DNA of 51,466 bases from Solobacterium sp. (lineage in GTDB: Bacteria; Bacillota_I; Bacilli_A; Erysipelotrichales; Erysipelotrichaceae). The notes under the pieces are model-generated. The model saw only the letters and a list, made by a program, of their open reading frames with translations, ran no database searches and was not told the DNA's origin. A program made the position numbers and the translations under genes. Positions 4,263 to 28,138 of this stretch are shown one piece after another (the first letter of the stretch is position 1; the number at the start of each line of letters is the position of its first letter). The stretch spans positions 1-51,466 of the forward strand of contig JAFUFO010000029.1 in the NCBI GenBank assembly GCA_017469885.1, read 5' to 3'.

Positions 4263-4293
4263 AAAAAACAGAATCCGTTCCACACGGACTCTG
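4263..4293 (-). terminator. Terminator of the radical SAM/precursor operon
   Basis: On the minus strand CAGAGTCCGT and ACGGATTCTG pair around GTGGA and are followed by six T residues. It lies 50 bp past the second precursor gene and separates the RiPP-type operon from the SGNH gene. Confidence 0.75.
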
Positions 4294-4342
4294 CTCTTCT
4301 GTGCTTCATATTCTGCAGGTCTCTCTTCCTGCGCATTCAGGA

Positions 4343-4624
4343 TCAGGATACCCAGTTATACACAATCTCAAATGTTCTGCAGTTGTCGTTGGACGCGCAG
4401 GTGCCGCCCACGGTTGCGGTCGCAGAGCAGCCGTATTTCTTGTGACTGCGCGTATACTGGTTGTTCAGATAATAACACGCATCGTTAAAGGGGCAGTTTT
4501 CTCCGTCTTTTACGGTAGACACGCACTCGGCCGGCCAGTTGATTGTCACCCCGCCGCCGATGGCCTTCAGTTCTTCATCGGAAAGTTTGGATTCAAGCAG
4601 TTTTTTCTTCTCTTCAGGTGTCAT
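4343..4624 (-). CDS. Six-cysteine RiPP precursor peptide, copy 2
   Basis: 93 residues starting at ATG 4624, about 9 nt after AAAGG (a TTG at 4630 is a worse start). Leader residues 1-25 are acidic/lysine-rich and end in a glycine triplet (KLSDEELKAIGGG), the double-glycine cleavage signature. The core begins VTINWP and holds six Cys with spacing C-x9-C-x5-C-x15-C-x9-C-x5-C, two copies of one three-Cys motif. Its sister at 4698-4979 has identical spacing. It is last in the operon after the radical SAM gene and is presumably its substrate. No transporter or protease gene is adjacent. Confidence 0.75.
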   Translation of the reverse strand: MTPEEKKKLLESKLSDEELKAIGGGVTINWPAECVSTVKDGENCPFNDACYYLNNQYTRSHKKYGCSATATVGGTCASNDNCRTFEIVYNWVS

Positions 4625-4677
4625 GATCAAAGTCCTTTCTGTCTGTTTCCGTTTTCAGTGTACTTCACGGATGTTCT
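4620..4677. repeat. Duplicated 58-bp junction, copy 1
   Basis: This segment matches 4975-5032 at 55 of 58 positions. In the other copy the same bases encode the last residues of the radical SAM enzyme plus the ribosome binding site and start of the first precursor. Here they form the upstream region of the second precursor, including a relic of the maturase stop codon. Confidence 0.9.
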
Positions 4678-4697
4678 GTATTCCCGCGCATGCAGGA

Positions 4698-4979
4698 TCA
4701 GTAGGTAAAGTCGTACTTGATTTCAACCAGCTGGCAGGTATCGTTGGTCCAGCAGGTACCGCCCACAGATGTGGTCGCAGAGCAGCCGTATCGACTATAA
4801 GAGCGGTAATAGTGAATCGCCAGTGTATAACACGCATCAGTTCCCACGCAGCTGGATCCGTCTTCTACGGTCGCAGAGCATTTTACCGGCCAGTTGATTC
4901 TCACTCCGCCGGAGACGGTCTTCAGTTCTTCATTAGAAAGTTCAGATTCAAGCAGTTTTTTCTTCTCGTCAGATGTCAT
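4698..4979 (-). CDS. Six-cysteine RiPP precursor peptide, copy 1
   Basis: 93 residues from ATG 4979, two bases after the stop of the radical SAM gene; the preferred ATG is about 9 nt from AAAGG. Leader KLLESELSNEELKTVSGG is nearly the same as in the second precursor, while the core (VRINWPVKC and the following residues) has diverged but keeps all six Cys and their spacing, plus conserved YGCSAT and VGGTC. Tandem placement behind the maturase suggests both are processed by it, giving thioether or other radical-installed crosslinks; the product class cannot be fixed from sequence. Confidence 0.78.
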   Translation of the reverse strand: MTSDEKKKLLESELSNEELKTVSGGVRINWPVKCSATVEDGSSCVGTDACYTLAIHYYRSYSRYGCSATTSVGGTCWTNDTCQLVEIKYDFTY

Positions 4980-5032
4980 GATCATAATCCTTTCTGTCTG
5001 TTTCTGTTTTCAGTGTACTTCACGGATGTTCT
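4975..5032. repeat. Duplicated 58-bp junction, copy 2 (inside the radical SAM 3' end)
   Basis: Original copy of the segment seen at 4620-4677; the period is 355 bp. It spans the maturase C-terminal codons, its stop, and the precursor Shine-Dalgarno. Confidence 0.9.
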
Positions 5033-6493
5033 CTTCACAATAAGGTCTTCCCGCCCGATCGCCCGCAGGATATCCTCTTTCCGCTTCTTCCAACCGCCTT
5101 TGAAATATTCACATGCTTTCATGTCTTTTGCAAGATAATCATCCGGGGATGTGATCAGCGCTGTAGCCCGACAGCCTCCGCAGCATGCTTCACGGTACTC
5201 GCATTCTCTGCACTCCGGGTTGTGATCCATAAAATCCTGAATCCGGAAATTAATCACACTCATGTAATGCGACGGGTCATCGAGAATCTCCTCCAGCGGC
5301 TGCGTCAGAAGATTCGGGAATTCCTTTTCGATCGGCGTAGCGACAAGCGACATGCACGGAAGCACATTGCCCTCCGGTGAGACATACATACTGCGGCGGA
5401 CAACCGCGCACATCGGCGCATCCGCAAAGTTTGCCTCGGGAATCCATTTTTCATACATGCCCTGTTCGACCTTCTCTTCCGTGTTGTAGTGAAAGAGGCC
5501 TTCGAGTACCAGTGAGAGCGGAGCCCCGTCCTCAAAGAAATACGGAATGTAGTCCAGATAAATCTGATTTGCTTCGGCATCGGTGAGGTAGTGCTCCGGC
5601 TCATTCTTCCATTCCCCCTGCGGTGAAGCATTATTGATCTTGAGACTGGAACAGCCGACCGATGCGAGCAGCTTCACCGTATCCCGTATGCTGGGGGCGC
5701 TTTCCCTGCACATGGCCATGGACGCTGAGGTACGAATACCATGTTTCTGACAGCGCCGGAAAGCATCCACAGCGATCTGTTCAGCACCCTTTACGCCCCG
5801 CATCCAATCATGGTGTCCGACTCCGTCAAAACTCAGCTGGACAACCGGATGAATATCACGCTTTTCGAGTTCTTCAATAAAATGGTCATCCACAAGTTTT
5901 CCGTTGGAGTAAATGGTCGTAATAAACATATCCCGCTTCCGGATCTCATCAACCAGCTGCCAGAAATCCGGCCGGATCAGCGGTTCTCCGCCGGTCAGCC
6001 CGATTCCGCGGATTCCGCACCGCGCGAAGCTGTCCAGCATCGTCATCAGCTGTTCATAGGACGGTTCTCCGGTTAAGGCGTGTGGTGCCGACATAAAGCA
6101 GTGCCTGCAGGAATAATTGCATTTTCCGGTAATGGACCAGCTGATGGAAGATTTATAGCGGCAGTCATACGCTTTATATTCCTGATACGGCAGAAGGTGC
6201 TTCTTCTCCGTGCAGCGCTGTATGACATTCTGTTCTTCCCAGAAGTCATACCAGGCTTTCTGTTTCTCACTCAGCGCATCATAGTCAATCAATGTCTCGC
6301 CATCGCAGTCCAGCATCAGCGCATAGGTTTCCTTATCCACAAACTCAGTATTCGTCCCCAAGGCCTGTGTAATGCCGAACGGCAGGAGTTTCCATCCTCT
6401 CAGACAATATGCCGGAGACAGGATATATATTCGTCTGTTTCCTTCATCACGCATCGCAGTCACTCCTGATAAAACAGTTCTTTTCTTAATCAT
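4982..6493 (-). CDS. Radical SAM/SPASM peptide maturase
   Basis: About 503 residues. The N-terminal 100 residues, with an RRIYILSPAYCLRGWKLLPF start, look like a leader-binding (PqqD/RRE-like) region. The radical SAM core has CNYSCRHC (CxxxCxxC, about C125/C129/C132) and GLTGGEPLIRPDF. The C-terminal SPASM region shows CAVVRRSMYVSPEGNVLPC, CRECEYREACCGGC and a final CEYF, ligands for auxiliary iron-sulfur clusters. This is the architecture of enzymes that crosslink ribosomal peptides. It is followed directly by two Cys-rich precursors. ATG 6493 follows AAGGAGA; ATG 6454 after AGGAG is an equally good start. No peptidase or exporter is in the operon. Confidence 0.88.
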   Translation of the reverse strand: MIKKRTVLSGVTAMRDEGNRRIYILSPAYCLRGWKLLPFGITQALGTNTEFVDKETYALMLDCDGETLIDYDALSEKQKAWYDFWEEQNVIQRCTEKKHLLPYQEYKAYDCRYKSSISWSITGKCNYSCRHCFMSAPHALTGEPSYEQLMTMLDSFARCGIRGIGLTGGEPLIRPDFWQLVDEIRKRDMFITTIYSNGKLVDDHFIEELEKRDIHPVVQLSFDGVGHHDWMRGVKGAEQIAVDAFRRCQKHGIRTSASMAMCRESAPSIRDTVKLLASVGCSSLKINNASPQGEWKNEPEHYLTDAEANQIYLDYIPYFFEDGAPLSLVLEGLFHYNTEEKVEQGMYEKWIPEANFADAPMCAVVRRSMYVSPEGNVLPCMSLVATPIEKEFPNLLTQPLEEILDDPSHYMSVINFRIQDFMDHNPECRECEYREACCGGCRATALITSPDDYLAKDMKACEYFKGGWKKRKEDILRAIGREDLIVKRTSVKYTENRNRQKGL

Positions 6494-27580: not shown

Positions 27581-28138
27581 TTATTTGGGTTCCTCCAGTG
27601 TCTTTCCTTCTTCGGAATTTTCCGATCCTTCATAAAGGAAATGACCTCTGCTCTTAAAGATGTGATGAAGCGCGAGAAAGACAAGTCTCGGGTCATGCGG
27701 CTGCGTATTATGAATCAGGTCGTTGCGCAGATGATAGACTGTGGGATACTCGCGCAGATAATCCTTATCCGTGTAATCAGGATCGTTGAACAGAACATAA
27801 CTGCAGTTTTTGTCCGTTCTGTCCTCCTGCCAGAGGTTTGATTCATGCAGACGAACAAAGAAATTCGGATCCTTTTTCAGAATCTCTTTTGCAAACAGTT
27901 CTTCCAAAATCAGTATTCTCTGTTTCCTGCGGTTCAGCCTTCTTCTTGAAGTGCGCGCAGCCCTTCTCTCCGAAGCATCATTCGCAGCTTCAAACAGCCT
28001 GGCTCCCCACATTGATTTTCCTTTGAAGCGCAGGACATTATAGTCATGATCTGTTACTGCCCATCCAACAGAATCAGTGCCGACATCCAATCCGATGTAA
28101 TAATTACCCTTACGCTTATCATTTCCGTTTTTCTTCAT
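27581..28138 (-). pseudogene. cas9: Cas9 N-terminal remnant (type II-A)
   Basis: 185 residues matching the first part of Cas9. RuvC-I is YIGLDVGTDSVGWAVTD with catalytic D18. The arginine-rich bridge helix is RRAARTSRRRLNRRKQRI (58-75). The start of the REC lobe includes YPTVYHLRNDLI, LVFLALHHIFKSRGHFLYEG. A whole enzyme is about 1,100-1,400 residues; REC, HNH, RuvC-II/III and PAM-interacting domains are missing, and the frame stops within a few bases of a terminator. GGAGG lies 6 nt before ATG 28138, so the fragment could still be translated. No cas1, cas2, csn2 or array is in the window. Confidence 0.9.

Follow-up and report, generated by a model that had tools for sequence, protein, structure and literature searches.

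A candidate thioether peptide family with a conserved Cys-x3-Asp core unit, doubled in a rumen Solobacterium species

Contig JAFUFO010000029.1 of a rumen Solobacterium sp., analysed here from position 1 to 51,466 of the forward strand (the window), carries a small operon lying entirely on its minus strand, in which a radical S-adenosyl methionine (SAM) enzyme with a SPASM domain, the maturase, is followed by precursor 2 and then precursor 1. The precursors are peptides of 93 aa each with a short charged leader that ends in a double glycine (GG, residues 24-25). We read these genes, with a probability of roughly 0.5, as members of an unnamed family of ribosomally synthesized and post-translationally modified peptides (RiPPs) that would carry thioether cross-links, with a probable Cys-Asp (ranthionine-type) link at the second cysteine of each core unit, and would be exported by an NHLM-type system. 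Thioether chemistry in general is the better-favoured part of this prediction; that a ranthionine-type bond from the second cysteine to the aspartate is the most likely single bond is proposed more tentatively.

Throughout the family the core follows the pattern C-x2-[S/T]-[V/A/T]-x5-C-x3-D-x(1,2)-C-x4-[V/I/N]-x-Y, typically CAATVEDGSWCxxNDACxxxxVxY. Its three cysteines (C1, C2 and C3), its aspartate and a tyrosine at C3+7 occur in 27 of 27 units, and position C1+3 is always Ser or Thr; the pattern behind this count, from which two near-identical Solobacterium metagenome-assembled genomes (MAGs) were left out, required the three cysteines and the aspartate and neither the tyrosine nor the Ser/Thr. 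An alignment and a hidden Markov model (HMM) search freed of the Cys and Asp requirement showed no exception to the core among full-length precursors; a fragment (L010:5168-5302) is without the tyrosine. The preliminary description of the locus had dealt in cysteine spacing, and is refined in that the invariant set emerging from the alignments is C, C, D, C and Y, not the cysteines alone. The aspartate and C3 are separated by one residue or by two (two in the GTDGGC variants; L011 and L012 have this wider spacing), and C1 and C2 by eight or nine (eight in L019:4639, found by HMM). Since the C2-x3-D spacing stays constant while these flanking loops vary, selection seems to tie the aspartate to C2.

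Freyrasin (PapA/PapB, Paenibacillus polymyxa) offers a chemistry for such a motif. In CX3D motifs PapB joins the cysteine to the beta-carbon of the aspartate, the minimal motif being C-S-A-N-D-A (PMC9413430); an auxiliary cluster of the enzyme holds the thiol of the substrate (PMC10470005). As in the present family, a SPASM maturase adjoins its precursor and the Cys-x3-Asp is invariant, CSANDA being close to the C-x-[S/T/G]-N-D-x found here; CASND, CGTND and CWSND in this family closely resemble the PapA minimal motif. Taken with the CX3D chemistry of PapB, the constant C2-x3-D spacing favours a ranthionine-type C2-Asp link. The two systems nevertheless differ: PapA has six CX3D motifs, whereas each unit here has one, plus two more invariant cysteines and the tyrosine; and the GG leader and NHLM export belong to the present family. 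The comparison covers motif and published description.

Both window precursors have the cysteine layout C34-x9-C44-x5-C50-x15-C66-x9-C76-x5-C82, which had been taken for an internal duplication of one C-x9-C-x5-C motif. Because precursors 1 and 2 are tandem duplicates, 77% identical at the DNA level, their matching spacing is not independent evidence. An HMM of the core built solely from single-unit precursors of other species matches twice in each window precursor, which bears out the proposal that the double three-cysteine pattern arose when a conserved unit was duplicated within the peptide (independent E-values, i-E):

4809..4880, minus strand: precursor 2 core unit 1, CSATVEDGSSCVGTDACYTLAIHY, i-E 5.3e-11
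4713..4784, minus strand: precursor 2 core unit 2, CSATTSVGGTCWTNDTCQLVEIKY, i-E 8.8e-6
4454..4525, minus strand: precursor 1 core unit 1, CVSTVKDGENCPFNDACYYLNNQY, i-E 5.6e-4
4358..4429, minus strand: precursor 1 core unit 2, CSATATVGGTCASNDNCRTFEIVY, i-E 9.7e-5

On sequence comparison, this Solobacterium species is the only one of the genomes examined to have the doubled form, and the single unit is the family-wide form; the single three-cysteine unit is ancestral.

The maturase had been described as having a leader-binding-like N-terminus, a CxxxCxxC motif and a SPASM domain. This portrait is supported by its 3+7 cysteines, by a strand-rich and helical N-terminal model and by fold matches to SkfB, SuiB, anSME, ChlB and CteB. 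In a 24-row alignment ten cysteines are invariant in all 24 maturases:

6098..6121, minus strand: SAM-cluster cysteines C104-x3-C108-x2-C111, invariant in 24/24
5111..5410, minus strand: SPASM domain (Pfam SPASM), seven cysteines C341-x12-G-x4-C359...C407-x2-C410-x5-C416-x3-C420-x19-C440, invariant in 24/24
6206..6430, minus strand: N-terminal leader-binding-like domain, of the RiPP recognition element (RRE) type, residues 1-75 of the AlphaFold2 model

The model has a mean pLDDT (predicted local distance difference test) of 86.6. Its N-terminal domain comprises strands at residues 2-4, 8-13, 16-22 and 28-30, helices at 33-40 and 55-66 and a further strand at 70-72, and a VIA alignment with SkfB and SuiB reaches into residues 2-90; these 75 residues are probably RRE-like in the model and occupy the position of the RRE in peptide maturases. 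The nearest solved folds are SkfB (Z 26.0 over 343 residues, root-mean-square deviation 4.1), anSME, SuiB, ChlB and CteB (5wgg, Z 23.3), and the best sequence-profile match among solved structures is again SkfB, at 4e-20. A relation to the anti-phage viperin was rejected, as the generic radical SAM core alone aligns.

SkfB is a sactipeptide maturase, and its place at the head of both the sequence and the fold matches would suit a sactipeptide-type product, in which each unit would form a hairpin with its three cysteines bound to the alpha-carbons of other residues and not to the Asp beta-carbon; three cysteines per unit also compare with thuricin CD, which has three alpha-carbon bridges per peptide (PMC3132745). 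We regard this as unlikely. Sactipeptide acceptors are chemically diverse (PMC8326336), and such a product does not predict an exact C2-x3-D across 27 units with varying loops; SkfB, moreover, has one auxiliary cluster only (PMC10470005), whereas all seven SPASM cysteines are invariant here. The sactipeptides (SkfA/SkfB, thuricin CD, ruminococcin C) share no core with the present family, which is set apart by its invariant Asp spacing, its full SPASM set and NHLM export.

The preliminary description of the operon as a radical SAM/SPASM maturase with two GG-leader, six-cysteine precursors holds for every part, both in position and in spacing:

4982..6493, minus strand: radical SAM/SPASM maturase, 503 aa from the ATG at 6493 (Pfam Radical_SAM 2.4e-20, SPASM 3.5e-8)
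4698..4979, minus strand: precursor 2 (MTSDEKKK...LKTVSGG/VRINWPVKC...), own-genome profile match 4.4e-25
4905..4910, minus strand: double-glycine cleavage site of precursor 2, predicted from sequence and aligned with the GG of other precursors
4343..4624, minus strand: precursor 1 (MTPEEKKK...LKAIGGG/VTINWPAEC...), own-genome profile match 3.2e-23
4550..4555, minus strand: double-glycine cleavage site of precursor 1, predicted from sequence and from alignment with other precursors

The extent of the conserved region suggests that the true start of the maturase may be the ATG at 6454, and precursor 2 could alternatively start at an ATG at 4985 that forms an ATGA with the maturase stop. A promoter and terminator scan of the locus gave nothing better than shuffled sequences, and the predicted structure of precursor 1 (pLDDT 39) was not informative, which is to be expected of a precursor this short and flexible. 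Elsewhere in the window, a short, apparently truncated open reading frame (ORF) at 27581-28138, minus strand, begins with a sequence that resembles a Cas9-type N-terminus by eye (YYIGLDVGTDSVGWAVTD...).

A single scan of 84,980 species genomes yielded 22 true relatives of the maturase (L006-L027), all from gut Bacillota, in addition to a paralogue in the window genome itself. Two are Solobacterium MAGs (L006, L007), 96-97% identical in the maturase and probably of the same species as the window genome; six come from Oscillospiraceae or unassigned Clostridia, at 56-61% identity, and fourteen, mostly from Lachnospiraceae and Erysipelotrichaceae, at 40-44%. The arrangement of the locus recurs in the two Solobacterium MAGs, with a single precursor at the corresponding place in L007. 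In L006 (MAG Tb.RUG.32), the precursor adjoining the maturase (L006:6370-6633, plus strand) joins the leader of window precursor 2 to the core of precursor 1, which suggests either that the duplicates have recombined or that the end of the contig is chimeric. The paralogue (L002, contig C23 of the window genome) is 45% identical and has its own GG precursor bearing the core. Apart from this paralogue, 16 of the 22 relatives adjoin one or more GG-leader precursors that share the core; 26 core-bearing ORFs lie beside these 16, and precursor 2 was aligned with 26 other precursors. A maximum-likelihood tree groups the window maturase with the Oscillospiraceae clade (99/99) and places the C23 paralogue in the other clade.

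At the level of the bacterial family, the maturase was found in the window genome only (1/146 genomes sampled), and a scan of the phylum returned only deeper relatives, with unrelated tiny cores. Three distant relatives from Bacilli (L044, L045, L046) combine a maturase, a GG precursor whose core is tiny (GGGCDNTKPKKKIIED) and an adjoining NHLM-like exporter, apparently another radical-SAM RiPP type. No relative was found in a scan of viral contigs, phages gave weak radical SAM matches only, and a plasmid scan with the L015 maturase gave no match at 1e-30.

Leaders and tails are less uniform than the core. Precursors from Oscillospiraceae have a long Nif11-like leader and a zinc-ribbon-like CxxC...CxxC tail. 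In Lachnospiraceae and Erysipelotrichaceae the leader may be short or long, and most precursors terminate in ...CxKAWR or a similar sequence; the window precursors have two units and no tail. The Nif11 leader model TIGR03798 scores 26.3 bits on the best relative, against a cut-off of 32.3, and does not match the window precursors, whose leader is short and not of the Nif11 type. Zinc-ribbon-tailed precursors also stand beside a KAWR-clade maturase in L023 and L019, so tail type is not strictly tied to maturase clade. To judge by these sequences, the core unit is the constant part, and leaders and tails are what varies.

Several of these loci hold further peptides or enzymes. In L023 a second, deep-branching radical SAM/SPASM enzyme (L023:3709-5178, plus strand) lies beside the family maturase, and a small upstream ORF (L023:2842-3237, plus strand) resembles a long-leader precursor. 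Near the L019 maturase, on the opposite strand, are three tandem GG-leader peptides (L019:2854-3834, minus strand) with short related cores, FCxFIxxLFGxxGxExC. Just upstream of the precursor and maturase in L008, a double-glycine leader (MNNELSLDQLENVSGG) is fused to an acyl-carrier-protein-like domain (L008:5148-5423, plus strand; best NCBIfam match 3e-15, below cut-off), which seems to be without the usual phosphopantetheine serine (DLGADRYDLL). A GG-leader ORF whose core looks SH3-type by eye (L014:9207-9485, plus strand) occupies a maturase locus without a core-bearing precursor. In the window genome, whose GG peptides were searched by profile only, contig C33 encodes a Nif11-like leader with GG and a zinc-ribbon-like CxxC...CxxC core devoid of the three-cysteine unit (L037:1288-1623, minus strand), followed by a second GG peptide (L037:950-1165, minus strand).

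The zinc-ribbon-like tail of the Oscillospiraceae precursors also lends itself to a different interpretation, in which the core cysteines of the mature peptide serve as disulfides or metal ligands and the bond made by the radical SAM enzyme is a different one (for instance C-C or C-O, at the invariant tyrosine or at the conserved tryptophan before C1), or the enzyme carries out an epimerisation. The invariance of the tyrosine at C3+7 and the presence of SuiB, which forms a Lys-Trp cross-link, and ChlB among the best fold matches agree with it. We find it doubtful, as the tryptophan before C1 is absent from KAWR-type precursors and the invariant C2-x3-D is left unexplained. A below-cut-off match to the CCCH zinc finger PF25585 was taken as a chance match of cysteine spacing.

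The window holds no peptidase or exporter linked to the operon, as the preliminary description had observed in concluding that these must act in trans; an NHLM-type C39 exporter proved to be encoded on another contig and to be linked in several relatives. In L009, L015, L016, L019, L025 and L026, an ORF with a C39-peptidase ABC signature (ABC1) is found no more than about 6 kb from the maturase, and L011 has an HlyD-like signature only. In L015 (Lachnospiraceae strain LC2019) an HlyD-like protein, ABC1, ABC2, the maturase and two precursors follow in a row. Contig C49 of the window genome carries HlyD-like, ABC1 and ABC2 genes. Against the TIGR03796 cut-off of 853, ABC1 scores 912 bits in the window genome and 900 in L015; the companion ABC2 reaches 689.8 and 699.3, respectively, with TIGR03797 (cut-off 709.4). 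No NCBIfam model matched the HlyD-like proteins, which are named by position and a shared sequence signature. Processing and export of the window precursors in trans by the C49 exporter is thus plausible. That the window has no exporter could also mean that the operon is a degenerate remnant with unprocessed precursors. This is highly improbable: in three strains the reading frames are unbroken and no core residue is lost, the maturase keeps all its catalytic cysteines, and besides the exporter elsewhere in the genome, the second maturase/precursor pair on contig C23 is intact.

In the mechanism that we propose, the GG-ending leader would dock on the RRE-like N-terminal domain of the maturase. 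Using SAM, the SPASM enzyme would then abstract a hydrogen from a core residue, which would be joined to a Cys thiol held at an auxiliary Fe-S cluster. The best-supported bond would run from the second cysteine of each unit to the Asp in C-x3-D, as made by PapB in freyrasin; as guesses, the partner of C1 might be the invariant Ser/Thr or the Val that follows it, and that of C3 a residue before the invariant tyrosine. With two tandem units, each window core could acquire up to six cross-links, by which a peptide would lose 12 Da. The modified peptides would be cut after the GG and exported by the NHLM-type C39-peptidase ABC exporter putatively paired with them, and the product would probably be secreted and act outside the cell. 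That the core is conserved while leaders change suggests that the target or role is constant, perhaps unlike that of a fast-changing bacteriocin. In a bolder and unlikely version this would be a new class of RiPP. Within each conserved 24-residue unit a single SPASM enzyme would form three cross-links of different kinds, joining C1 to Ser/Thr or Val, C2 to the beta-carbon of Asp, and C3 to the tyrosine or a residue close to it; the unit would be a portable module, alone, doubled or zinc-ribbon-tailed, that is exported by NHLM and has a conserved, non-bacteriocin role.

Several points weigh against a ranthionine-type, NHLM-exported product. The CX3D view leaves the invariant tyrosine, and the equal invariance of C1 and C3, unexplained. 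The nearest enzymes form different products (a C-alpha thioether for SkfB, a Lys-Trp carbon bond for SuiB, formylglycine for anSME, a C-C bond for PqqE), so that homology does not fix the reaction of the maturase. The exporter is unlinked in the window, and we infer its pairing with the precursors. Finally, L014, L016, L018, L021, L024 and L025 are without a core-bearing precursor in the available sequence; to one side of the maturase, that of L016, L018, L024 and L025 runs on for no more than about 700 bases.

Had homologues belonged to a characterised family, the locus would be an ordinary case of it; the SCIFF, AlbA and StsB models were compared and none matched at cut-off (E 0.01 for SCIFF). 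The maturase falls below every NCBIfam cut-off (AlbA 61 vs 850, StsB 84.5 vs 625). Membership in the known ranthipeptide/SCIFF group is very improbable. It could draw on six cysteines in about 49 residues, superficially like the six in forty-five of SCIFF, and on CteB, the Clostridia thioether SPASM maturase, being of related fold. Yet 0 of 27 precursors match the SCIFF model TIGR03973, and the ancestral unit has three cysteines, not six; the duplicated three-cysteine unit is a further difference. The SCIFF pattern also differs from a GG leader with NHLM export. In Pfam and NCBIfam, beyond the generic radical SAM, SPASM and Fer4_12 models, only TIGR01847, a 15-residue generic GG-leader signature, reached cut-off, for precursor 2 only; in open-access full text, neither the core string nor CX3D beyond PapB was found. 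The earlier statement that no named RiPP class fits therefore stands, as judged against Pfam, NCBIfam and open-access papers; an unnamed node may exist in published radical-SAM RiPP networks.

Parallels in organization are offered by the NHLM/Nif11 systems, with their GG motif, TIGR03796/TIGR03797-type exporter, mix-and-match maturases and, in some relatives, Nif11-like leader. Classical NHLP/Nif11 families combine a conserved leader with a hypervariable core (Haft, Basu and Mitchell 2010, PMC2887384), whereas in the present family it is the leader that varies and the core that is conserved. If our reading is true, the family would give radical SAM RiPPs a family-wide invariant substrate motif, with a prediction of C2-x3-D cross-linking and natural spacing variants acting as mutants. 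It would also invert the NHLM/Nif11 logic, as leaders and tails are exchanged around a conserved core, one unusual form bearing a zinc-ribbon tail, and may open a route to the function of these rumen peptides. Lachnospiraceae strain LC2019, a named strain and not a metagenome bin, has exporter, maturase and two precursors in one cluster.

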